Source: an uncultured Mucilaginibacter sp. (GTDB taxonomy: Bacteria > Bacteroidota > Bacteroidia > Sphingobacteriales > Sphingobacteriaceae). From it: a stretch of DNA of 64,000 nucleotides. The position numbers and the translations under genes are program-made. Each line of letters begins with the position of its first letter. The stretch's first letter is position 1. The stretch lies in assembly GCA_903864275.1 (NCBI GenBank), contig CAIPFE010000008.1, positions 1-64,000 of the forward strand, given 5' to 3'. The notes beneath the pieces were generated by a model, which was not told the DNA's origin, did no database searches, and saw only the letters and a program-made list of their open reading frames with translations. Positions 1,702 to 29,035 of the stretch are shown piece by piece.

Positions 1702-2697
1702 TCATTCATTCCTTAAATTAATCAGGTTAACTACTACTTTCACCATCATATCTTTTTCATCGGGTTTACTTTCGGCAATCATCAGGGTTAAGGCTACTAA
1801 GGCATTGTCCGCTATTCTTTTTGTACCATCTTCCCGGTAAAGTATGCCATTCTTATCCAAAAACCATACAAACAAGTAGGCTGCTATCCGTTTGTTACCA
1901 TCGGAAAAGGAGTGATTTTTTATCACAAAATACAACAAATTGGCTGCCTTATCTTCTATGGTAGGGTAAAATTCAACACCGCCAAAGGATTGATAAATAG
2001 TTCCGATAGAACCTTTAAAGGAATCATCCTTTTCATTACCGAATAATGTACTGCCACCAAATTTATCCTTCAGGTCTTGTATGGCTTGTATAGCTTCATC
2101 ATAAGTGGCAACAAACAACAGGTGGTCAATAGTTCCTTCAATTGTTAATGCCTGGTGATCGTATTTGTCAAGAATATCCAGCGCATAACTATAATCAGTG
2201 ACTACTTTTAATAAACCGGTAGCTTCATCAGAGGTCAGCTCTTTGTTTTTAAGAACATTGCCTAATAAATTTACGGTTTGCTTTAAGGAATTGAATTGTT
2301 CGGTTTGTTCTCTTAACTTTTGTTCATTGACAGCATATCCTTTGATTAGATAATCTTTTAATATTTTATTAGCCCATATTCTAAATTGTGTACCCCGTTT
2401 AGAGTTTACCCGGTAGCCTATGGATATAATCATATCTAAATTGTAATGATCCCGGTCCCGATTGATGGACCTGTTACCCTCTTTTTGAACTGTTCGGAAT
2501 TTCCGAACAGTTGCTTCCTTTGATAATTCTTCCAACAAATAAATATTTTTTATGTGCTCACTGATATTAGCCTTGCTGGATTGAAACAGGTCTACAATAT
2601 GGGCTTGTGTAAGCCATATATTTTCATCCTCTAATTTAACATCTACAGATGTCTGTCCGTCAGGGGTTTGATATATTATAATTTGATCGTTATTCAT
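1702..2697 (-). CDS. RhuM family protein with C-terminal Fic/Doc domain
   Basis: Two-domain protein of 331 residues. Residues 1-120 are the RhuM (virulence-associated) domain with the typical WLTQAHIVDLFQSSKANISEHI segment in pieces and a KRGTQFRIWA core. Residues 185-300 form a Fic/Doc fold with the motif HSFSDGNKR (262-270), complete for the catalytic histidine, phenylalanine, acidic residue, asparagine and arginine. The lysine before arginine is as in Doc kinases rather than the GNGR of AMP-transferring Fic enzymes, so the modification (phosphorylation or AMPylation) is open. Such genes are frequent in defence or mobile islands; here it lies between integrase and vsr. No separate antitoxin gene is seen beside it. 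Confidence 0.88.
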   Translation of the reverse strand: MNNDQIIIYQTPDGQTSVDVKLEDENIWLTQAHIVDLFQSSKANISEHIKNIYLLEELSKEATVRKFRTVQKEGNRSINRDRDHYNLDMIISIGYRVNSKRGTQFRIWANKILKDYLIKGYAVNEQKLREQTEQFNSLKQTVNLLGNVLKNKELTSDEATGLLKVVTDYSYALDILDKYDHQALTIEGTIDHLLFVATYDEAIQAIQDLKDKFGGSTLFGNEKDDSFKGSIGTIYQSFGGVEFYPTIEDKAANLLYFVIKNHSFSDGNKRIAAYLFVWFLDKNGILYREDGTKRIADNALVALTLMIAESKPDEKDMMVKVVVNLINLRNE

Positions 2698-2744
2698 AAA
2701 ATTTAAAATTAAGTGTTTTTTGTTAGTAATTGTAATACCCCTGA

Positions 2745-3962
2745 TTAACCTGTAATAAGCTTTTTTCGCAATAGCTGCATATCCGAACTTATTTTATGAT
2801 CCATAACTTTAGCATAAATCTGCGTGGTTTTGATGCTGGTATGCCCCATCATCTTAGCGACACTTTCAATCGGAACGCCATTATTAAGCGTTACAGTGGT
2901 TGCAAACGTGTGCCGGGCAATGTGGAAGGTCAAAAGCTTATTGATCTTGCAGAGGTCGGCAATTTCCTTTAAGTAGGCATTCATCTTTTGATTGCTCATT
3001 ACCGGCAGCAAAGAATCTTCGGCTATACATTGCGGATGATCGTTGTAAGACTCAATAACAGACAGCGCGGCAGGTAAAACCGGGATTCTTGATAAGGTGT
3101 CTGTTTTTTTGCGGCTGGTATAAATCCACAGATCGCCATCAATGCCTTTAACCAATTCGGAGCGTTTTAATTTATGTACATCAACATAGGCCAAACCCGT
3201 GTAACAGCAAAAAACAAATACATCCCTCACTACACGCAATCGTTCAATGTCAAATTTTTTTTTAATAAGCCTGTCTAATTCTTCTTTAGTCAGTACATCC
3301 CGGTGGACAGTCTTTGTTTTAGGTTTATAATTCAGGTAAGGATCAACGGTAAGCCAGCCATTACCTAAGCAGATGCGGACAATTTTACCAAGGTTTTTAA
3401 TGTATTTAATTGCAGAGTTATTGGCGCACTTGCGTACACTCCGCAGGTAATATTCAAAATCGTTCAGGAAAGCGAAGTTGATTTTTGTAATAGGTATGTC
3501 CGATACGTTATGTTGCCATTGCATAAAGTCCTTCGTGTGCATGAGGGCTGTTTCATAACGCTGTAAGGTGCTTTTTTCAAATTCCTGACCTACAAGGCTT
3601 CGCATTTTTTGGTTATGATCTTCAAATACCGTTATAAGTGTCCTGGCCTTTTCAACCTTTCCGATAAAACGGTTCTTTAAAGTTTCTGCGGTGGTGTTTG
3701 CATCCGCCTCCGTCATTTGGCGGTGCAACTCATGCAATTTGCCTTGTACGCCTTCCAGATAGGAGTTTAAAGCTTTCGCATCGGCTTTGGTGCCAATAGC
3801 CCGGCCTAAGTGGGTATCCCATCGCGAAGGATCAAATTTTCTGCTTACAGCAAGTTCGGCGCGTTGGCCATCAACGGTAATGCGCAAGTAAATTGGCATA
3901 TCACCTGATTGATAATTTTTTGGCTTTCTCATCGAGAAAAGCAATGTGAGCGTAGTTCTCAT
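2745..3962 (-). CDS. tyrosine-type site-specific integrase
   Basis: 405-residue tyrosine recombinase of the Bacteroidetes integrase group. It has an N-terminal arm-binding domain (RTTLTLLFSMRKPK start), a SAM-like core-binding domain around 105-200, and the catalytic domain from about 215. Visible catalytic residues are HIARHTFA (histidine-x-x-arginine), GHTSIKTTQIYAK with the second histidine and the nucleophilic tyrosine. The position of the first catalytic arginine reads TGLAYVDV, with alanine instead of arginine, a known variation in relatives of the CTnDOT integrase. It lies beside tRNA-Asp, its probable attachment site, and is the first gene of the element. Start ATG at 3962 gives the usual N-terminus. 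Confidence 0.93.
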   Translation of the reverse strand: MRTTLTLLFSMRKPKNYQSGDMPIYLRITVDGQRAELAVSRKFDPSRWDTHLGRAIGTKADAKALNSYLEGVQGKLHELHRQMTEADANTTAETLKNRFIGKVEKARTLITVFEDHNQKMRSLVGQEFEKSTLQRYETALMHTKDFMQWQHNVSDIPITKINFAFLNDFEYYLRSVRKCANNSAIKYIKNLGKIVRICLGNGWLTVDPYLNYKPKTKTVHRDVLTKEELDRLIKKKFDIERLRVVRDVFVFCCYTGLAYVDVHKLKRSELVKGIDGDLWIYTSRKKTDTLSRIPVLPAALSVIESYNDHPQCIAEDSLLPVMSNQKMNAYLKEIADLCKINKLLTFHIARHTFATTVTLNNGVPIESVAKMMGHTSIKTTQIYAKVMDHKISSDMQLLRKKLITG

Positions 3963-4153
3963 AATAATTGACTAATTAATAGTGAAACAAATGTGATTAA
4001 TTAATCATCTGAAATCAAGATGTTCAATGATTGAACACGTTGTAAATCAATTTATTATGAGCTAATTCGGGAGTTAGCAGCAGACTGGCAATGAACTCCC
4101 GAATTACTCCCTTTTAGGATGCTAAAAGATGCATATTTTGGTATGTTCTAAAA

Positions 4154-4193
4154 ACAAAAAACCCCTCAAATGATATCATTTAAGGGGTTTTTG
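4154..4193 (-). terminator. intrinsic terminator of tRNA-Asp
   Basis: Perfect stem AAACCCCT/AGGGGTTT around a palindromic ATGATATCAT core, with a T run on the minus strand. It lies about 20 bp after the tRNA-Asp 3' end and would end its transcript before the integrase gene. Confidence 0.85.
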
Positions 4194-4214
4194 TCAATTT
4201 TGCTATTGAAAAAG

Positions 4215-4288
4215 CGGAATGGACGGGACTCGAACCCGCGACCCCGTGCGTGACAGGCACGTATTCTAACCAGCTGAACTACCACTCC
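4215..4288 (-). tRNA. tRNA-Asp(GTC)
   Basis: Read on the minus strand, it folds into a full cloverleaf of 74 nt: acceptor GGAGTGG/CCATTCC (one G-T pair), D-arm GTTC...GAAT, anticodon loop CTGTCAC with anticodon GTC, T-loop TTCGAGT, discriminator G. CCA is not encoded. It is the likely insertion site of the element at 1-4215. A diverged second tRNA-Asp lies at 56272. Confidence 0.97.
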
Positions 4289-4320
4289 GGTTGTCCGAAG
4301 TACTCCTTCGGATGGGATGG

Positions 4321-4351
4321 CAAATATACGCCACCAGTTTCTATTACACAA
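4321..4351 (-). promoter_or_regulatory. Bacteroidetes-type promoter of tRNA-Asp
   Basis: On the minus strand TTG (4349-4351), 20 nt spacer, TATATTTG (4321-4328), matching the -33 TTG / -7 TANNTTTG consensus of the phylum. It sits about 33 bp upstream of the tRNA. The rest of 4352-4653 holds no gene that I can support. Confidence 0.7.
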
Positions 4352-4653
4352 GCTGTTTTTTAAAAAACTTAAATGAATATAAAGCCGGGTTTGGCGACTG
4401 GCGAAAACAATATCCAAAATTACTTTATTGCCATATTTAACGGGATATTTTTGCCAAAAAGTATGAAATGAGTAAAATTTCATCTTTTTTTCATAAATCG
4501 TGTTTTTAGGGGAAATAAAATTTGCGTTTCTCACTTAAAAACCTGTACATTTATGCCTTAGATTAACAAACCCTGGCGCATAAATATATTTTAATTAAGT
4601 AGTTTGGATCCGGGGAGGTGAATAAATTTTTAATTGTAGTTTTTTTGGGGAAA

Positions 4654-4685
4654 GCCGTCCGCCTTTTTGGCCGGACGGCTTTTTA
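4654..4685. terminator. intrinsic terminator after the efflux operon
   Basis: Strong GC-rich stem GCCGTCCG/CGGACGGC around a CCTTTTTGGC loop, located 3 bp downstream of the emrB-type stop. The T run is better on the plus strand, so it may work in both directions. It separates the efflux operon from the tRNA-Asp region. Confidence 0.75.
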
Positions 4686-4687
4686 CT

Positions 4688-6235
4688 TTAATGGGCGTCC
4701 ACCGGCATTTTAGCAGCTTTTTTAAACGGCTGCAGGTAGAGCAGCGGTATGGAGAATAGCATAACCAGCCCCGATATCCAGTAAGCATCGTCATAAGTTA
4801 GCAGTAAACTCTGCCGGGTTACCGCGCCTTCAATGGCCATATAAGCCATGTGCAGCGCATCAGACGCTGACTTGCCAACAGCCATAAAACTATGCTGCAG
4901 CGCCTCAAGCCTTTGGTTAAATGCATTATTATATGGGTTAATATTACTCAGCAAATCGCTGCGATGTTTTGCTGTCCGGATATGGATAATGGTAGTTAGA
5001 ACCGCAATACCAAACGAACCGCCTAACTGGCGCATCATATTATTTAACCCTGTACCCTGCCCAAGTTCGGGGCCTTTCAGGTCCGCAATGGCAAGTGTGG
5101 TTAGTGGTACAAATAACAGCGCCATACCGACACCCCTTATCAAAAGCGGGATTAAAACATCACTTTGCCCGGTGCTGAGCGTTGAATTGCTAAGCATGGT
5201 AGTGAATACAAAGAACAAAAACATCCCAATCGTGGCCATAAATTGCGCCGGGATCCCCCGGTTGAGCATTTTGCCGATAAATGGCATCATCATAATTGTA
5301 CACAAGCCACCCGGGAACAGCAGCTCGCCGGTTTGCTGGGCCGAGAATCCGAGCAGGTTCTGGCAAAATACCGGGAATACGAAAACGGAGCCATATAAAC
5401 CGAAGCCGAGCACAAACGACGTAAACATCCCTACCGCGAAACTTCGATGCCGCATAATGCCAAAGTTTACTATCGGGTGATCAATGCTTAATTCCCTCCA
5501 TATAAACAATATTACCCCTAATATAGCCGCTATTGTAAGCACCAGGATATAAGTTTTTGCAAACCAATCTTCCGACTCGCCTTTTTCAAGGATGGTTTGT
5601 AAACTGCCAACGGCTATCGCCAGTAGTAAAATACCCCACCAGTCAATCGGCTTGCCTTTTGCTTCTTTTGGCGTTTCGCGCACAAATGTGTAAGCACAAA
5701 ATGCTGCGAGCGCCCCTACTGGAATATTTACATAAAATATCCACCTCCAGTTAAAATGGTCGGTAATAAACCCGCCAATGGTTGGCCCTACAGTTGGCCC
5801 TACCACGGCCCCCAAGCCAAATAAAGCTGTTGCAGTACCTATTTGTTCGCGCGGCCAGGTTTCTACCAATATTGCCTGCGATGTTGATATTAAGCCGCCA
5901 CCCGCAACTCCCTGTAATATCCTGAAAATTACAAGCTCATTGAGGCCGGTAGAGTTGCCGCACAAAAACGAAGCAATGGTAAATACAACTATTGATGTGA
6001 TAAAATATTGTTTCCGCCCAAAACGACTTCCAAGCCAGCCTGACATGGGCAGTATAATTACGTTTGCTACGGCATAACCGGTAACAACCCAGGCAACATC
6101 TTCAAGTGTGGCGCCCAGGTTTCCCTGTATCTGCGGTATCGATACATTTACAATCGTGGTGTCAATCAGCTCCAGTAACGAAGCGATGATCACCGTGATG
6201 GTAATGATCCATTTTTTAAAGCCAGTTTCAGCCAT
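4688..6235 (-). CDS. emrB: DHA2-family MFS drug exporter (EmrB/QacA type)
   Basis: Inner-membrane proton-drug antiporter of the 14-helix DHA2 family, 515 residues as expected. Visible: helix 1 with LIDTTIVNVSIP (motif D1 type), GWLGSRFGRKQYF (motif A loop between helices 2 and 3), and motif C in helix 5 (GLGAVVGPTVGPTIGG). It is the last gene of a four-gene operon reading tetR-tolC-emrA-emrB. The adaptor EmrA and the outer-membrane channel upstream would form a tripartite pump with it. About 120 bp separate it from emrA, and this gap holds a small inverted repeat. Substrates cannot be deduced. Confidence 0.92.
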   Translation of the reverse strand: MAETGFKKWIITITVIIASLLELIDTTIVNVSIPQIQGNLGATLEDVAWVVTGYAVANVIILPMSGWLGSRFGRKQYFITSIVVFTIASFLCGNSTGLNELVIFRILQGVAGGGLISTSQAILVETWPREQIGTATALFGLGAVVGPTVGPTIGGFITDHFNWRWIFYVNIPVGALAAFCAYTFVRETPKEAKGKPIDWWGILLLAIAVGSLQTILEKGESEDWFAKTYILVLTIAAILGVILFIWRELSIDHPIVNFGIMRHRSFAVGMFTSFVLGFGLYGSVFVFPVFCQNLLGFSAQQTGELLFPGGLCTIMMMPFIGKMLNRGIPAQFMATIGMFLFFVFTTMLSNSTLSTGQSDVLIPLLIRGVGMALLFVPLTTLAIADLKGPELGQGTGLNNMMRQLGGSFGIAVLTTIIHIRTAKHRSDLLSNINPYNNAFNQRLEALQHSFMAVGKSASDALHMAYMAIEGAVTRQSLLLTYDDAYWISGLVMLFSIPLLYLQPFKKAAKMPVDAH

Positions 6236-19670: not shown

Positions 19671-21500
19671 TCACGACGAAGTCTCATTCTTATCACCGCG
19701 CAATAGCCTGAAACGTTTGCGGGCCTCGTTTATCCACAGGCTGCCGGCATAATCACTGATAATTTTTTGGTAATATATTTTGGCTTGTTCTTTATCTGAT
19801 AAATGGTTTTCGTAAATATCGCCCAGCATAAAAACGGCGTCATCAGCCCACAGGCCCGAGCTATAATCTGAAGCAACTTTCAGCAAAAGATCTACAGCAT
19901 TTGTGTAGTTCTTTTGCTGAATGCATAGCCGGGCTTTCGCCATCAGGATATCAGCTCCAAGTGAATTTCCCGGGAATTTTTTATCGATGCTGTCGAGTGT
20001 CGCCAACGCTTTACCGGGTTCTTCAGCAAATATCATCAAGTCGGCCCTCGCGTACATTTTTAAAGCAGCGCCAGAACTGTCGGCGACAAGGTTATCAGAG
20101 ATCTGGAGCGATAAATTTAACGCATCGTTAGCTATCAGCTCTGATGTTGCCGCTTTCAATACATCAAGTTGCCCTTTGGCCCATGTAAAATCAGCGGTAT
20201 AATAGGCAAGCTTGGCATTCCTGTATTTTGCGTCCTGGCCTATAGACGTGTTGCGGAAGTCCATTTCCACCTGGCTATACAATAATGTTGCATCCCATGG
20301 TTTGTTATTGAGGAGCGAGATATCGCCAAGGTCAAGTTTGCATGAGGCCAGTAAGCCGGGCTTGATCCCCGGGATCGTGATCGTTTCTTCCAGCAGTTTT
20401 TGTGCGTCGGCCAGCTTATGCAATTTAAATGCCTGCAGGTTGGCCAACTTTTGCATGGCGAAGGCCGTATTGCTGTTTTTGCCAAATTCATTCAGCAGGT
20501 CAAAATAATCTTTTTCAAGGCTCAGCAAATCATCCTGTACATATTTACCTGATGTTACCCGTAGGTTTTTGGTATTGATGAGTTCAATTTTTGCCGGGAT
20601 ATAATAGGGTTGGTCTTTCCCTTTGCTAACCAGGTATTCGTATCCGCGGATCGCCGCATCATAAGCCTCATTGGATGTTAATGTACGGCATAATTCAAAA
20701 ATACCGCTGCCATCGTCATTCTGACGCCTGCTTAAGGCAAGCGACTGGTTCAAAGCCTGGTCAAATTCCTTTTGCTGCAAAAATTGCCAGGTAAGCAGTT
20801 CGGCATAAAGCGTTTGCTGCGGATCTTTTTGTATCCTTTTTAATAAAGCTACTTTCAGAATATCATAATCATCTGCACCTTCATAAATACCGGCCAGGGC
20901 ATTCTCGGCCTGGCTTATAAATGTTGGGTTCGATGGCAAAAAGTTCAGGTACTCTTCGGTTAAAGCAGCTTTATCCCTTTTATAACGGTAAAGATTGATC
21001 AGCTCGAACGAGAATAAAGCGTCGTTATGCAATATTTTACGGCCCTGCAGAAATATTTTTATGGCATAATCGACGTTGGAATTCTGGTAAAACTGCGCCG
21101 AGAGCATAGCTATTTCGTTTTGATCGGCTGGCAGGTTTTTGATTAATTCATCATACAAAACGTCGGCTTTTTCAATTGAGCCTTGCTGGGTGTACGTAGC
21201 GCCTAACATGATAACATACCGGTGGTCGCCAGGATGCTTGCGGATCATTTTTTTGGTTATTGTTTCGGCTTCATCAAACTTTTTCAGCCCGAGCAGGCCG
21301 TTTACATAAACACCATAATACTGCTCATTATCCTGTTTATATAGTTTTTGATAGATATCAAGGGCTTTTTGTTGTTCGCCGTTTGTTGTGAATTGTTTGG
21401 CAAGCTGTAACTCGGTGTCTTGTGCCAACAGCTTTGTAAAGCCGGCAAAAACAAAAAATATAAAAACGTAGGGCCACTTCATCTTTTCAAAAATAATCAA
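19671..21500 (-). CDS. secreted tetratricopeptide-repeat protein
   Basis: 609 residues with an N-terminal signal segment (about 1-25, ending LLAQD) and TPR-like helical pairs along most of the length: NGEQQKALDIYQKLYKQDNEQYYG in parts near 35, GSIEKADVLYDELIKNLP near 105, and a C-terminal block NYTNAVDLLLKVASDYSSGLWADDA with further TolA/YbgF-like spacing. TPRs hold protein complexes together. Neither partner nor location (periplasm or outer membrane) is set by the sequence. It is transcribed alone; the downstream interval to the kinase gene is repeat-rich. Confidence 0.85.
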   Translation of the reverse strand: MIIFEKMKWPYVFIFFVFAGFTKLLAQDTELQLAKQFTTNGEQQKALDIYQKLYKQDNEQYYGVYVNGLLGLKKFDEAETITKKMIRKHPGDHRYVIMLGATYTQQGSIEKADVLYDELIKNLPADQNEIAMLSAQFYQNSNVDYAIKIFLQGRKILHNDALFSFELINLYRYKRDKAALTEEYLNFLPSNPTFISQAENALAGIYEGADDYDILKVALLKRIQKDPQQTLYAELLTWQFLQQKEFDQALNQSLALSRRQNDDGSGIFELCRTLTSNEAYDAAIRGYEYLVSKGKDQPYYIPAKIELINTKNLRVTSGKYVQDDLLSLEKDYFDLLNEFGKNSNTAFAMQKLANLQAFKLHKLADAQKLLEETITIPGIKPGLLASCKLDLGDISLLNNKPWDATLLYSQVEMDFRNTSIGQDAKYRNAKLAYYTADFTWAKGQLDVLKAATSELIANDALNLSLQISDNLVADSSGAALKMYARADLMIFAEEPGKALATLDSIDKKFPGNSLGADILMAKARLCIQQKNYTNAVDLLLKVASDYSSGLWADDAVFMLGDIYENHLSDKEQAKIYYQKIISDYAGSLWINEARKRFRLLRGDKNETSS

Positions 21501-21706
21501 TTAATTGGTTAATTTGAAGATTTTATAATTAGAATCTTTGAAAATGCGATCGTTCAAAGTCACCAATTTTCAAATTTTCAAATCAATAAATTTTCAAATA
21601 AAATCTATTATATAACGTTTTTACCCGGTAAAATTATAGTGACAGTTTGAATTGCTTATATATATTGCATAATTTAACCTGATTAAAAACCCCTATTGTA
21701 AACCCA

Positions 21707-23608
21707 ATGTTAAAGCCCTTAAGAATATTACTTTTTATTAATGTAATAATTGCTTTGTGTGCTTGTAACTGGCATCAGACCAAACTGATCCCAATTACCG
21801 ACTTTTTTAAGACGGCTGAAAAGAGCACATTCAGGATTTCCCCGGACGGTAAATACATCTCGTATTTAAAACCATATAAAGATAAACAGAACCTTTTTAT
21901 ACAATCACTGGCTGACGGGAAAGAACGCATGGCGACCTCTTTCCTTGATTATCCTGTAGGGCGCGATTATTTTTGGACCTATAACAACAAGATAGTTTTT
22001 AACCAGGATATCATCGCGCTTGATGAATATAAAATGTTTACAGTTGATGCTACGACCTTAAAAGTGCACAAAATTTTTTCGCAGGAAAAGGTAAGGATAA
22101 CCCTGCTTAACCGGAACAAGGAGGAACCTGATATGATAAGCATCAGGATAAACAAGCGTGACCCGGCAAACCTCGATATTTACAGGTTAAACATTATAAC
22201 AGGGGAGTTGATACCTTATCTTGTAAACCCAGGCAATATGACGGACTGGTACCCGGATGCTAATGGTAAAATAAGGCTGGTCACCACATCGGATGGGGTA
22301 AATAAAACCATATTATACCGGCCTGACAATAATACTCCGTTTAAACCCATTATCGAAAACAATTTTAAAACTTATGTAAGGCCGATAGCATTTACCGGGG
22401 AAAAAAATTATTTCTACGCCCTGTCAAATGTTAACCGCGACAAAACAGCCCTGGTTGAAATTAACGCTGAAGACGGTAAGGAAATGAAAGTAATTTTTGC
22501 TTGCGATAACGGTGACCTACAGGACGCAGAATACTCAAAAAATAAACACCGGATCGAGTTTGTTTCGTGGGAGGCAGCCAAACCTCAAAAGCATTTTTTG
22601 GATTCGGGCATGAAAGCTATTTATAATAAATTATTGACTGCGCTTAAAGGCAACCAGGTAAATATTATTGACAGGGACAGCGCAGAAAATAAGTTTATCG
22701 TTTTTAGTTATACCGACCGTAACCCCGGTTCGTATTATCTTTATGAGAATACTACCGGGACATTGGCAAAACTTGGAGATATAAACTCAAGCCTGAAACC
22801 GGACGAGCTGTGCAGAATGGAGCCCATATCTTTTAAGGCCAGCGACGGAATGACGATAGGCGGCTATTTGACCTTGCCGCTTGGGGAAAAGAAGACGAGC
22901 CTGCCGTTGGTAGTTATGCCCCACGACGGCGTATTCGGCCAAAGCTCACGCTGGCGCTATGACCCGGAAGTTCAGTTCTTAGCCAACCGGGGATATGCTG
23001 TTTTGCAGGTGAATTATCGCGGCTCGACGGGATACGGAAAGGATTTTTATAGCGCCGGATTTAAAGAGGTTGGAGGCAAAATACAAGAGGATATAACCGA
23101 TGGCGTGAAATGGTTAATTAGAACGAGGGTAGCCGACCCTAAAAAGATAGCGATATTTGGTGGCGGCTTTGGCGGCTTTTCAGCGCTGTACGGGGTATCG
23201 TTTCATCCTGAATTGTATAACTGTGCTATAGTTCAGCATGGCCTCATTAACTTTTTTACCTATATTAAAGACGCCCCGCCCTTTCAAAAACCTTTTGTAA
23301 AAATGATGTACGAAATGGTTGGTGACCCCGAAGCAGATGCAAACCAACTGAGGGCTATTTCCCCGGTGTTCCATACCGATAAAATAAAGGCGCCGCTGCT
23401 TATTTTCCAGGGGGCAAAGGATGACCGCGCAAACATCAGCGAGTTAAACCAATTTGTACGCGAATTGCAAAAACAAAACGGGAATGCAATGGTTAAGTAT
23501 TTCCTGAAGCCAAATGAACGCAGTGTATTTAGAATTCAGAGCAACCGTATGCAGATGTATACCGAAATAGAAAAATTCCTGGATAATAATATGCCGGTTA
23601 ACCCTTAG
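21707..23608 (+). CDS. S9 prolyl-oligopeptidase-like lipoprotein lacking catalytic residues
   Basis: 633 residues with a lipoprotein signal (Cys20 in ALCAC). An N-terminal beta-propeller-like region (TFRISPDGKYISYLKP near 40) is followed by the alpha/beta-hydrolase domain from about 375 (GYLTLPLGEKKTSLPLVVM). In active S9 enzymes the serine sits in GxSxGG; here the same place reads GGGFGGF with Gly487. The catalytic histidine of the NEGHGF motif reads NERSVF with Ser606. The aspartate motif GAKDDR (Asp572 or next) remains. So the fold is kept but the active site is gone. It is followed after 8 bp by a histidine kinase and then a response regulator. A binding or sensing role on the periplasmic side is my inference. 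Confidence 0.9.
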   Translation: MLKPLRILLFINVIIALCACNWHQTKLIPITDFFKTAEKSTFRISPDGKYISYLKPYKDKQNLFIQSLADGKERMATSFLDYPVGRDYFWTYNNKIVFNQDIIALDEYKMFTVDATTLKVHKIFSQEKVRITLLNRNKEEPDMISIRINKRDPANLDIYRLNIITGELIPYLVNPGNMTDWYPDANGKIRLVTTSDGVNKTILYRPDNNTPFKPIIENNFKTYVRPIAFTGEKNYFYALSNVNRDKTALVEINAEDGKEMKVIFACDNGDLQDAEYSKNKHRIEFVSWEAAKPQKHFLDSGMKAIYNKLLTALKGNQVNIIDRDSAENKFIVFSYTDRNPGSYYLYENTTGTLAKLGDINSSLKPDELCRMEPISFKASDGMTIGGYLTLPLGEKKTSLPLVVMPHDGVFGQSSRWRYDPEVQFLANRGYAVLQVNYRGSTGYGKDFYSAGFKEVGGKIQEDITDGVKWLIRTRVADPKKIAIFGGGFGGFSALYGVSFHPELYNCAIVQHGLINFFTYIKDAPPFQKPFVKMMYEMVGDPEADANQLRAISPVFHTDKIKAPLLIFQGAKDDRANISELNQFVRELQKQNGNAMVKYFLKPNERSVFRIQSNRMQMYTEIEKFLDNNMPVNP

Positions 23609-23616
23609 GCCCCTTT

Positions 23617-25260
23617 ATGAACAGGCCGAAAAGCATTTACCGAAAAAATTTTTCACTGATCATTATTTTCCTGGTATTGATCTCGGTAATCTTTGTGCTT
23701 GCCCTCATAGTTTCCTATAATCTCAACCAAAAGTATATTGAAGATGCGTTTGCCTCAAAAAAGATCGACGTACTGGAGCAAACCATTAAGCCTTACAATT
23801 CGCTTTTTCAAAATAAGATACCCGAAATAACATCCTACCAGGGTTTCCTGGATTCAGCATCGGCAGCAAAATACGCCGATGCCGTTTTTCATGATTTCCC
23901 TTTTGTTACAAAGATCATTTTTTATGATGCGAGGATCAGTAATCAAAAAAATAGCACTGTAGTAAGAAATAACCTGGGTATTTCCATTAATGCGATGTAC
24001 CAGTTTGTGCCTGAAATTGGCAAATTATCAGGTTTAAGAATATGGAATACAACTGATGAAGAGGATTTCAAACAAATGGCCGTTAAACTCAGCGACTATA
24101 TCGCTTTTTCAGATACATCGAAGGAATCACCCCAGGATGAAATTTTTAAAACTTTTTATGATGTAAAATCAGATAAGATAAGCTATTCGAATATCCTTCG
24201 GCGTACGGATATAAAAACATACCGGGAACTGAGCAAAAATGGAAACCCATCATCCTATTACAAACAAAATATGATGACGTTTTTCCTGAACCCTTATTTA
24301 TTACGAATCAGGAACCTGCATAAGGAACTTTACCAGGATGTTAGTATACAACCTGTAGTTTATGATCCGCTGGGCGCCGAAAACGACAACCTTGTTACCG
24401 AGGTAGCCCTGCCAGGCGCATTCGCTGATTTTAAACTATATTTTAGTTCGACCCAAAATTATCTTACTACAGAAACAAACCGCCGGTTCATGCCCATAGG
24501 TGCGCTTGTACTGTTAATTTATGGCTTCCTGGTGCTGGTCGGCTGGCTTATTTACCGCGATCTGAATTTTAACATAAAACTCTTCAAGCTCCAGTACGAC
24601 TTTATAAACAATTTTACACACGAATTTAAAACCCCGGTGAGCGTAATAAAAATTGCAGGTTCAAACTTAAGCGGCGACAGCGAGCTTACCGAGAAACAGC
24701 GCAAGCAGTACGGCCGGATATTAAATGAGGAGGCCGATAATCTTAATGACCTGATGAATAAACTTTTATCGTTTACCCAACTTGAAAATAAATCAATTGA
24801 TATTAAAAAGGAGGAAATAAACGTTGGAGATTTTGTAAACAGGTACAAAGAGACGTTTAAAATAAAATACCCGGATTTTAAAATAAGCTGCGGCGTTCAT
24901 GGCGTTCAGTCTTTTTATACCGATCCGGTGTTGCTGGGCAGCGTTTTTCAGAATATGATTGAGAATGCCTACAAATATTCGCACCCAAATAAAAAAGTGC
25001 TTTCCATAAATGTAACGCACGAAAAAAGGAATATTATATTTTCTTTTGCTGATAAGGGGATAGGGATACAAAAAAATGAACTCAGCAATATATTCGGAAA
25101 GTTTTACAGGATCGAGAACCAATATAATCAAAACGGGAGCGTAGGTTTAGGTTTGGCATTTTGTAAAGAACTGGTCAATTTTATGAATGGAGAAATAACA
25201 GTTAATAGCAAGGTTAACGTAGGTTCGGAGTTTATTATAACTTTACCTTATGAAAATTGA
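23617..25260 (+). CDS. sensor histidine kinase with periplasmic domain
   Basis: 547 residues: helix at about 12-34, a large periplasmic domain to about 288, second helix 289-313, HisKA with NFTHEFKTPVSVI (His335), and HATPase (N-box NMIENAYKYSHPNKKV, G1 DKGIGIQ, G2 GSVGLGLAFCKEL). No HAMP domain is apparent. It lies 8 bp after the S9-like gene and 3 bp before the response regulator, so the three are one operon. The inferred pathway is lipoprotein, kinase, regulator. Confidence 0.94.
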   Translation: MNRPKSIYRKNFSLIIIFLVLISVIFVLALIVSYNLNQKYIEDAFASKKIDVLEQTIKPYNSLFQNKIPEITSYQGFLDSASAAKYADAVFHDFPFVTKIIFYDARISNQKNSTVVRNNLGISINAMYQFVPEIGKLSGLRIWNTTDEEDFKQMAVKLSDYIAFSDTSKESPQDEIFKTFYDVKSDKISYSNILRRTDIKTYRELSKNGNPSSYYKQNMMTFFLNPYLLRIRNLHKELYQDVSIQPVVYDPLGAENDNLVTEVALPGAFADFKLYFSSTQNYLTTETNRRFMPIGALVLLIYGFLVLVGWLIYRDLNFNIKLFKLQYDFINNFTHEFKTPVSVIKIAGSNLSGDSELTEKQRKQYGRILNEEADNLNDLMNKLLSFTQLENKSIDIKKEEINVGDFVNRYKETFKIKYPDFKISCGVHGVQSFYTDPVLLGSVFQNMIENAYKYSHPNKKVLSINVTHEKRNIIFSFADKGIGIQKNELSNIFGKFYRIENQYNQNGSVGLGLAFCKELVNFMNGEITVNSKVNVGSEFIITLPYEN

Positions 25261-25263
25261 ATT

Positions 25264-25956
25264 ATGAATAAAGAAATTAAAATCGCGCTGGTTGAAGATG
25301 ATGAAAACCTGCGTTTCCTGGTAGCAGAGCGTTTGCAATCAGAAGGTTATAAAGTTTTAGAGGCCGCTAACGGCGATGATGCCGAAGAAATTATCTTACA
25401 GGAGCTGCCGCAGATCGTGTTGTTAGACTGGATGCTGCCCGGCAAGCAGGGTTCGGAAGTCTGCACCAATATCAGGGCGAAGGGGTTTGATAACCTGGTA
25501 ATAATGATGACCGCGAAAGGCCAGGATGTGGACAAGATAAAAGCTTATAATTTTGGCGTATCCGACTATATCATCAAACCTTTTAATATGGATGTTTTGG
25601 TGGCGATGATCGATAATAAGATCAAATTTTCGCTGAATACCGAAAAATCGGAGTCGTATCGCTTTGCCAATATGGAGCACTTGCCGAACACACACTTGCT
25701 GTTAAAGGACGGCAAGAAAGTAGAGCTTACCATCCTCGAAAACCGCATATTGCTGTATTTCCTGAAAAACAAGAACAAGGTAATTAACCGTGAAGAGCTG
25801 ATGATGGAGGTTTGGGGCTATAATGCCGATGTAAACACCCGCACACTTGATATGCATATTGTAAGGCTCCGTAAAAAGATAGAGTCAAATGCCGATTCAC
25901 CGCAGTTCCTGCAAACCGTGAGGGGGATTGGGTATAAGTTTGTTTATGCAGGATAA
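25264..25956 (+). CDS. OmpR-family response regulator
   Basis: 230 residues. Receiver domain 1-120 with acidic pair EDDEN near 11-15, phosphoacceptor Asp55 (VLLDWMLPG), Thr in MMTAKG and Lys in IIKPFN. Winged-helix DNA-binding domain 135-228 (NREELMMEVWGYNADVNTRT, VRLRKKIE, VRGIGYKF). It is the output of the upstream kinase and presumably regulates transcription; target genes are not visible here. Confidence 0.95.
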   Translation: MNKEIKIALVEDDENLRFLVAERLQSEGYKVLEAANGDDAEEIILQELPQIVLLDWMLPGKQGSEVCTNIRAKGFDNLVIMMTAKGQDVDKIKAYNFGVSDYIIKPFNMDVLVAMIDNKIKFSLNTEKSESYRFANMEHLPNTHLLLKDGKKVELTILENRILLYFLKNKNKVINREELMMEVWGYNADVNTRTLDMHIVRLRKKIESNADSPQFLQTVRGIGYKFVYAG

Positions 25957-27817: not shown

Positions 27818-29035
27818 TTAATTACCCGATTGGCCCACCAGTGTCCAACTATAGGTGCTGCCTGTTTTAAGCAGGCCATAATAATCAAAAACACCGCCAG
27901 CCCTGTCGCCATTTTGGTCGAGTGCGGTTGGGCCGGTTATGCCGGTATAGGCGTTGGCCTGCTCGGCGAAGTTTGCTTTTAACTGGGTAAAAGTTACGTT
28001 TTTGTTTTCAGATACTTCAATCGTTTTCTCTATCACCCACATGGCATCATAAGTGGATAAGGCAAAAGCATCCGGCTGTATATTGGTTGCTGCGGTTACC
28101 AGGTCGGAAATGGGTTGCCATTTTGCTTTAAGCGCCGCAGGCAGCCCGAAAGTAGGTGCATAAAAGCTGGTTGCTATTGCAAAATCTGCCGCAGTGGGGA
28201 CGGCTGTTAAAGCGGCGCTTAATACTGCCCCATCACCGCCATACCACCGTACCTTGCTGATCACCGGATCAGCGGCAGCCTGTTGAAATAGTTCGGTACA
28301 TTCCTCAAATGACGCAAGATATACAGCCACATTGGCCATCCCGTAAGTGGCTGCCAACTGCGTTACCTGGCTGTGCAATAAAGCAATTTGGGCAGTAAAA
28401 TCGGTTGCTGTTGTGCCGTAAGCAGCAAGCGCACTTATATGGCCGCCCAATGTTGTAAACGAGCTCCCGGTTGCAGTTTGCAGCCCCAGGTTACCAGCAT
28501 CATTACGGGCAAGGGTAACCAAACCGCGTACACCTGCTTTGTAAATAGAATTGGCTATTGCTGCACCCTCTACTTTATCGGGCGGGCAAAAACGGAAAAC
28601 TGCGTCGCCGGCTATGGCCAAACTGCTTGCTGTACTTCCCTGGCTAACCACTATTACCCCGTCCGGATCGGCCAGGGTATTAATAGCGCCCAGCTCGGCG
28701 CTGGTTTGCGGGCCTATGATATAATGCGTGCCTCCGGCGGCAGCCTTTGCAAAATCCTGCGCGGCAGTTGCCGGTTCGAACTGGGTATCATAAAAATCTG
28801 CCGACATCCTGAAGTCGGCATTTTTGGCGTATAAATAGTTGTTGATATCCGTAACCGCGATGGAAACAGCGGCTTTTGAATTAATACCAAGCGTAGACCC
28901 ATTGCCCGTCAGGGAGAACAGCCCCGACACATTATAAACCTTTATTACCTTATTGCTATTATTATCCTTGTGGCATGACTGCACTACTGCCGACAAAGAG
29001 ATCATAGCCACGACAAAAAGTACTGTTTTTTTCAT
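27818..29035 (-). CDS. periplasmic-binding lipoprotein (LivK/Peripla_BP_6 type), orphan
   Basis: 405 residues with a lipoprotein signal (VVQSC, Cys21). The remainder follows the type I periplasmic-binding fold of ABC amino-acid receptors: GLFSLTGNGSTLGINSKAAV near 40, then IIGPQTSAELGAINTLAD and VIVVSQGSTASSLA near 110-140, and a second lobe with AAYGTTATDFTAQIALL. No permease or ATPase gene is next to it, so it may be a receptor without its own transporter, or serve one elsewhere. Low-complexity Ala/Thr use is marked. Confidence 0.85.
   Translation of the reverse strand: MKKTVLFVVAMISLSAVVQSCHKDNNSNKVIKVYNVSGLFSLTGNGSTLGINSKAAVSIAVTDINNYLYAKNADFRMSADFYDTQFEPATAAQDFAKAAAGGTHYIIGPQTSAELGAINTLADPDGVIVVSQGSTASSLAIAGDAVFRFCPPDKVEGAAIANSIYKAGVRGLVTLARNDAGNLGLQTATGSSFTTLGGHISALAAYGTTATDFTAQIALLHSQVTQLAATYGMANVAVYLASFEECTELFQQAAADPVISKVRWYGGDGAVLSAALTAVPTAADFAIATSFYAPTFGLPAALKAKWQPISDLVTAATNIQPDAFALSTYDAMWVIEKTIEVSENKNVTFTQLKANFAEQANAYTGITGPTALDQNGDRAGGVFDYYGLLKTGSTYSWTLVGQSGN

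Follow-up and report, generated by a model that had tools for sequence, protein, structure and literature searches.

Three described systems come closest to the one reported here. DPP6 and DPP10 are animal S9B proteins that lack the active serine and are partners of Kv4 channels, which they modulate (PMC3973911). QseG is a lipoprotein that is encoded with the kinase QseE, which it binds and activates (PMC12691602). In the RsbQ-RsbP and RsbQ-PAS pairs, an alpha/beta hydrolase is encoded with a signalling protein and the two make up a two-part sensor, in which the partner has a PAS domain and the triad of the hydrolase is needed (PMC3183031). We have analyzed an operon in a stretch of 64,000 nucleotides (the window) from an uncultured Mucilaginibacter sp. 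of the family Sphingobacteriaceae. The operon encodes a lipoprotein of the S9 peptidase fold that has lost the catalytic Ser and His, then a sensor histidine kinase and an OmpR/PhoB-type response regulator. We lean towards reading it as a three-part signalling system, in which the S9 protein would be an accessory, co-sensing subunit of the kinase, a binder that would have replaced a cutter in many lineages. The preliminary description of this locus knew of no described system of the type; among the matches listed in open-licence PubMed Central (titles and abstract openings), we likewise found no description of an operon of an S9 pseudopeptidase and a kinase and no study of the family-wide kinase, though related ideas exist in the three systems above.

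An S9-fold lipoprotein encoded with a sensor kinase

The S9 protein belongs to the S9 fold superfamily, as it matches Pfam Peptidase_S9 (PF00326) with an E value of 2.7e-39, at 135.3 bits against a gathering cut-off of 22.6. Its AlphaFold model (mean predicted local distance difference test, pLDDT, of 87.6) begins with a beta-propeller-like part and continues into an alpha/beta hydrolase, and the nucleophile elbow is kept as strand 476-487 and helix 488-499. The top match of the model in the PDB is an acylaminoacyl peptidase (5l8s; template modelling score 0.78), which is also matched by sequence (E 3.3e-33). In place of the Ser-Asp-His triad of an active S9 peptidase, the protein has Gly487, Asp572 and Ser606. 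Gly487 lies within IAIFGGGFGGFSAL (elbow GxSxGG), the retained Asp572 within GAKDDR, and Ser606 within PNERSVFR, where stand-alone relatives have EGHGF. Thus, the two replacements that had been claimed for this protein, with the fold around both of them kept, are borne out by the sequence, the model and the structure match. The former His loop is replaced by a genus-conserved NERxxFR, in which Glu604 is invariant and Arg605 at least 90% conserved (63 rows). Two narrower identities were tried and rejected, Dpp5 (NF053518; 88.3 bits, cut-off 900) and lasso peptide isopeptidase (NF033523; 54.7 bits, or 71.9 for an intact relative, cut-off 400).

The lipoprotein signal consists of hydrophobic residues 1-23 with Cys20. 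In Bacteroidota, a K-(D/E)2-type export signal after the Cys marks surface-exposed lipoproteins, as defined in other families (PMC5080379). The window protein has CNWHQT, and by this criterion from other families at least two acidic residues at +2 to +6 are found in 18 of 158 family rows, which is not a consistent signal. We infer that the S9 lipoprotein faces the periplasm.

The kinase has two hydrophobic segments (6-38 and 289-316) with about 250 residues between them, so that residues 39-288, approximately, form the periplasmic part, and its phospho-acceptor is His335, assigned by position in the HisKA domain. No Pfam family scores above its cut-off in the sensor region, and in fold searches with the kinase the matches were filled by the kinase domain. 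The kinase of L037, whose start ran into the S9 gene, was excluded from the fold alignment. PhoB (TIGR02154) was rejected as the identity of the regulator (188.1 bits, cut-off 296.2). The S9 gene is the first of the operon, and open reading frames (ORFs), lipobox and Pfam agree with the earlier statement that a lipoprotein gene lies 8 bp from the gene of a kinase with a large periplasmic domain, followed by that of a response regulator.

To follow the operon, we used a genus set (the window and 64 relatives, which are Mucilaginibacter or bins labelled Bacteroidetes or Sphingobacteriaceae bacterium), giving 65 genus loci, together with 40 loci from 20 other genera and 59 further loci that had a flank of just 1.5 kb. 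The S9 gene is present in 142 of the 149 genus genomes, including all 117 good ones, and at a threshold of E 1e-45 in 391 of 397 good family genomes. Four of the six family genomes without a match at this threshold are those of genus g9 (G156, G177, G191 and G200), of about 1.8-2.0 Mb. The kinase sensor is present in 139 of 149 genus genomes, again in 117 of 117 good ones, and is matched exactly once in each of the 61 genomes of a sample that was drawn for the order and proved to consist of family members only. At every locus that reaches far enough, the kinase gene is downstream of the S9 gene (163 of 163; 64 genus, 40 from other genera and 59 further), the sole miss among the 65 genus loci being a contig end. 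The regulator gene follows the kinase gene in all 102 loci that reach it (63 of 65 genus loci and 39 of 40 from other genera; at the three others the contig stops short of it). Broken or shortened S9 genes stand before kinases at L188, L189, L190, L340, L342, L343 and L371 (genera g12, g14 and g16), where they could possibly reflect ongoing loss of the partner or assembly errors. The S9 frame of L189 is disrupted 500 bp ahead of the kinase, and at one of the 59 short-flank loci the kinase begins 225 bp past an early S9 stop.

Recurrent loss of the catalytic residues

None of the 63 readable genus proteins has the Ser-His pair. L073 (M. agri), with Ser at the nucleophile place and no His, is the only such case among them. 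Across the family, 161 rows are readable, of which 34 keep both residues and 114 neither, with Ser alone missing in 12 and His alone in 1 (L073); these counts exclude L048 and L086, which are cut by contig ends, and L189, which is unreadable at the triad, and score as lost L093 and L354, where a His aligns with the catalytic column but no EGH-type loop surrounds it. Since at least one of the two residues is missing from 127 of the 161 rows, many of the family's S9 peptidase-like genes probably do not encode enzymes. Every row read (1 to 5 for each genus) is intact in g6, g8, g11, g13, g20, g21 and g22; g15, g16 and g19 are mixed; and no intact row is found in g1, g2, g3, g4, g5, g7, g10, g12, g14, g17 and g18. 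The lost Ser is replaced mainly by Gly within the genus (Arg in 15 proteins, Trp in 1), and outside it by Gly in 59 rows, Arg in 2, Glu in 2 and Asn in 1. The His position holds varied residues, including A, T, K and S. At the Asp572 column, 159 of 160 readable family rows have Asp.

A 113-row S9 tree requires at least 14 changes at Ser and 9 at His. The corresponding minima are 11 and 9 for a 71-row S9 tree (mixture model, with L263 included), and 9 and 7 for a 51-row tree built from the kinase and regulator without the S9 protein; all three are quick trees with many unresolved forks, and the S9 trees were built without the catalytic columns. The 113-row tree omits L187, L188, L189, L190, L340, L343, L371 and 49 of the 63 genus rows, the 71-row tree L189 and most genus rows, and the 51-row tree L184, L189 and most genus rows. 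L073 sits in a dead clade, and its Ser, which counts as one change, is probably a reversion. Ser is lost with His kept at seven separate places on the 113-row tree (L341/L342, L199/L324, L201/L202, L177, L174, L317 and L315), as it is in L188 and L343, which are absent from that tree. His lost with Ser kept is seen there in L073 only, within the dead clade. Ser seems to have been lost before His, the one-sided chance of the observed order being 1 in 128 if both orders are equally likely and the lineages independent.

These counts bear on the idea that the S9 protein is still active, through another nucleophile or another chemistry, and makes or destroys a ligand of the kinase, as proposed for RsbQ-RsbP. 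That Ser and His persist together in 34 of the 161 operon members, that Asp is kept in all rows but one and that the elbow glycines are among the positions retained in the genus would all suit this idea, and RsbQ requires its triad (PMC3183031). However, the residue at the Ser place of the dead lineages is Gly, Arg, Trp, Glu or Asn, none of them a likely nucleophile, and none of the 63 readable genus proteins has the pair. We regard residual activity as improbable.

The S9 protein is under strong purifying selection. Between close genus pairs, the median ratio of nonsynonymous to synonymous substitution rates (dN/dS) is 0.032 for the S9 gene (18 pairs), 0.041 for the kinase gene (23) and 0.019 for the regulator gene (46). 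The hydrolase domain has the lowest value of the four domains tested, 0.017 (20 pairs), followed by 0.043 for the kinase part of the kinase (32), 0.047 for the propeller (11) and 0.065 for the periplasmic part of the kinase (10); the usable pairs are those with a dS of 0.1-1.2 out of 1953, and the samples are small. Of 93 positions that are invariant in 60 triad-intact proteins (34 from operons and 26 stand-alone, the latter drawn from the 39 intact outgroups, with L263 excluded), 85 are unchanged in the majority of genus proteins. Besides Ser487 and His606, which are lost by the choice of groups, none of these positions is lost throughout the six dead groups examined; the nearest to it is Tyr510, lost in four of them. 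Near the nucleophile, Tyr488 to Phe and Thr493 to Ala are changed between stand-alone and operon proteins, the intact ones included, as if the active site had shifted ahead of the loss of catalysis.

If selection were relaxed, a decaying peptidase gene might persist merely by preceding two genes that are needed. The varied residues at the His place and the broken or short copies listed above would be expected under such decay, but the frames are open in the great majority of S9 genes, dN/dS is far below 1 and lowest in the hydrolase domain, and the lipobox Cys (158 of 162 family rows), the Asp and the 85 positions are kept. We consider this explanation highly improbable. In the preliminary description, local decay was the expected answer should orthologs in the same operon keep Ser and His. 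Such orthologs do exist in other genera (the 34 intact rows), yet the loss holds for 63 of 63 genus rows and recurs in many lineages. Because it is genus-wide and recurrent, with strong purifying selection and with the lipobox and operon place kept, local decay fails as an account, and a pseudogene is disfavored.

Origin of the operon and its upstream element

With the family S9 profile, relatives at E 1e-60 or better are found in 73 of 296 class genomes, 13 of these in the family, and 40 loci were fetched among the 60 matches outside it. Ser and His are kept in 39 of the 40 fetched outgroup orthologs, and the operon's kinase is downstream of none of the 40. At the same threshold the kinase profile finds 13 of 296 class genomes, all of them family members. 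Since the outgroup S9 proteins are stand-alone and mostly intact, and the kinase is found in family members only among these class genomes, a catalytic stand-alone S9 protein was probably the source of the operon's S9 gene, at or close to the family base. Three of the 40 outgroup loci have kinase or regulator matches nearby. L240 has a different kinase-regulator pair about 700 bp downstream, and L273 has a regulator match about 2.8 kb away. L263, the sole dead S9 among the 40 outgroup orthologs, is also the sole one that lies head to head with a kinase-regulator pair of a different type. Because it stands on a long branch together with the family row L184 in the 71-row tree, L263 may not be a true outgroup.

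A conserved 16-bp element (GTAN8GTNAC, here GTAAAATTATAGTGAC) lies upstream of the S9 gene, and candidate promoter boxes follow it, TTTG and TAATTTAA, which we take to resemble Bacteroidota promoter boxes; TAATTTGAC is found in 23 of 65 genus upstreams. In the 200 bp ahead of the S9 gene, 64 of 65 genus loci have the element, at a distance of 70-91 bases from the start, as do 30 of the 40 loci from other genera, compared with 1.2% of shuffled upstreams; the pattern was derived from the very loci counted, and the counts are thus no independent test. In each of eight genomes the best match is the copy before this operon, and the other matches are thirty with two mismatches and three with a single mismatch, of which G009 has one and G062 two. 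A recurrent two-mismatch match falls inside a coding frame in the two genomes read, and a similar match in G121 lies between two divergent genes. That coding frame is presumably GH3-like. The element is a likely site for the regulator.

Upstream of the S9 gene and divergent from it lies the gene of a TPR protein with a signal-like start, at all 65 genus loci and at 28 of the 40 from other genera. In g6, g13, g15 and g17 the 16-bp element occurs without this gene beside it; g4 and g14 lack both, and g2 lacks the element. The TPR gene adjoins that of a second histidine kinase, beside which no response regulator is found among the neighbouring frames listed or scanned. Another gene, two genes downstream of the operon, encodes a protein that combines an N-terminal Cys with an ANF_receptor ligand-binding domain.

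Table 1. Features of the operon, its surroundings and the outgroup locus L263 (window coordinates unless L263 is named; for L263 the S9 gene is set on the plus strand).
Feature	Position or size	Strand	Basis or remark
Genome whose contig C8 carries the window	6.03 Mb
Second histidine kinase gene, 404 residues	18230-19444	-	adjoins TPR gene
TPR protein gene	19671-21500	-	divergent, upstream of S9 gene
16-bp element, candidate operator	21628-21643	+
TTTG, candidate -33 box	21646-21649	+	sequence; two bases after 16-bp element
TAATTTAA, candidate -7 box	21670-21677	+	sequence, genus upstream comparison; 20 bp past TTTG
S9-fold lipoprotein gene, 633 residues, triad Ser and His lost	21707-23608	+	ORF, Pfam, model, PDB match
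Lipobox Cys20 codon	21764-21766	+	Cys at column in 158/162 family rows
Beta-propeller domain, residues ~38-365, blades uncounted	21818-22801	+	model secondary structure, S9 structure matches
Alpha/beta-hydrolase domain, residues 371-633	22817-23605	+	Pfam, model
Gly487 codon, catalytic Ser position	23165-23167	+	sequence, alignment to relatives
Asp572 codon, catalytic Asp retained	23420-23422	+	Asp in 159/160 readable family rows, Asn in 1
NERxxFR in place of former His loop	23513-23533		genus-conserved
Ser606 codon, catalytic His position	23522-23524	+	sequence, alignment to relatives
Sensor histidine kinase gene, 547 residues	23617-25260	+	ORF, Pfam HisKA and HATPase_c
OmpR/PhoB-type response regulator gene, 230 residues	25264-25956	+	ORF, Pfam Response_reg and Trans_reg_C
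Gene of protein with ANF_receptor domain	27818-29035	-	two genes downstream of operon
L263, S9 gene	3659-5548	+
L263, histidine kinase gene	1990-3546	-
L263, response regulator gene	1273-1971	-

A putative co-sensor and the known systems

In the three-part system that we favor, the S9 protein would be exported and anchored by a lipid on Cys20 so as to face the periplasm. There it would contact the kinase encoded beside it, act as its accessory (co-sensing) subunit and bind a ligand in the old substrate cleft. The kinase would phosphorylate the OmpR-type regulator, which probably also controls its own operon via the upstream 16-bp element. We suggest that the S9 peptidase had its full triad when it joined the two-component system, at or near the family base, and that in many lineages, including that of the window, catalysis may have turned useless or harmful. 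The nucleophile would then have been lost, mostly to Gly, and the His later, with the fold, the lipid anchor, most conserved residues and the operon place kept. That the dead protein is a partner of the kinase had been proposed in the preliminary description, and a non-catalytic partner is still the best reading, given the genus-wide and recurrent loss, the purifying selection, the lipobox and the place in the operon. Peptide binding by the S9 protein is plausible from its ancestry.

Several observations weigh against an accessory subunit of the kinase. A few genomes retain the kinase though the S9 gene is broken or short (for example L189, L190 and L371). Active-looking S9 versions occupy the same operon in other genera, so that its role may not be the same in every genus. 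The 16-bp element is absent in 10 of 40 loci from other genera despite the operon (all five of g14, both of g2 and the single one of g4), and its matches with up to two mismatches in the eight genomes total 41, against 58 for a reversed control; because there are fewer than in the control, a regulon is unsupported. The rates of evolution speak to the same question. Branch rates were compared on a fixed tree of 52 loci, which omits L184, L188, L189, L190 and most genus rows, with the other four parts held constant. The propeller and the kinase sensor correlate at 0.27 (p 0.006, uncorrected for the 15 pairs; 0.35 on 62 loci before the control protein was added), and the control TPR protein and the kinase sensor at 0.07. 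The hydrolase domain has no link with the kinase sensor (0.02), and covariation of the S9 protein with the TPR protein (0.41 for the propeller, 0.45 for the hydrolase) exceeds that with the kinase sensor. Rate covariation thus supports coupling of S9 protein and kinase weakly at most.

The same data raise a different role for the S9 protein, as a periplasmic chaperone or scaffold or a partner of the TPR protein, which would make it a regulated output of the two-component system and not its sensor. The divergent TPR gene is a constant neighbor in the genus and a common one elsewhere, its protein covaries most with the S9 protein, and the 16-bp element precedes the S9 gene and has its best copy there in eight of eight genomes, as if the operon were the main target. 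We nevertheless think this role unlikely. Of the 40 loci from other genera, 12 have no TPR gene next to the operon, whereas the kinase is missing from no locus whose contig extends to it, and the covariation may only reflect that a long protein tracks time best.

Across the family, the best reading is that the S9 protein would be a peptidase-derived subunit, on the periplasmic side, of a family-specific kinase, enzymatic in some genera and binding-only in others. We put forward, tentatively and as one possibility, a bolder form of it, a receptor that evolved by repeated natural 'substrate trapping'. An S9 peptidase that had been joined to a two-component system would have become a non-cutting ligand trap many times independently, with the nucleophile removed first, and the family would hold enzyme, half-dead and dead versions of a kinase co-sensor. 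One operon offers many independent losses of catalysis, intermediates that have lost Ser and kept His, and intact relatives in the same setting. Thus, the role of catalysis in the sensor and the reason for its loss can be asked directly.

With the S9 acylaminoacyl/prolyl oligopeptidases (PDB codes: 5l8s and 8wt1), the window protein has in common the propeller and hydrolase fold, the Asp and the elbow glycines; unlike them, it lacks Ser and His and is a lipoprotein in a kinase operon. DPP6 and DPP10 are similar in that they are dead S9 proteins which partner a membrane protein, but they belong to another S9 branch and are animal type II membrane proteins, and their partner is a channel, not a kinase. 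QseG and QseE resemble the present pair as a lipoprotein encoded alongside a kinase. Here, the lipid anchor and the shared operon are read from the sequence, and QseG-QseE is a system of Pseudomonadota. To our knowledge, QseG has no relationship to peptidases. RsbQ is likewise an alpha/beta hydrolase paired with a signalling protein, but its partner is a PAS protein and its triad is required. We know of no propeller or lipid anchor in RsbQ. RprX-RprY of Bacteroides is also a two-component system of Bacteroidota, but the regulator scores 117.9 bits against RprY (NF051850), below the cut-off of 370, and this identity was rejected. Thus, we do not class the S9 operon within DPP6/DPP10, QseG-QseE or RsbQ-RsbP, which would by analogy be its closest working counterparts.

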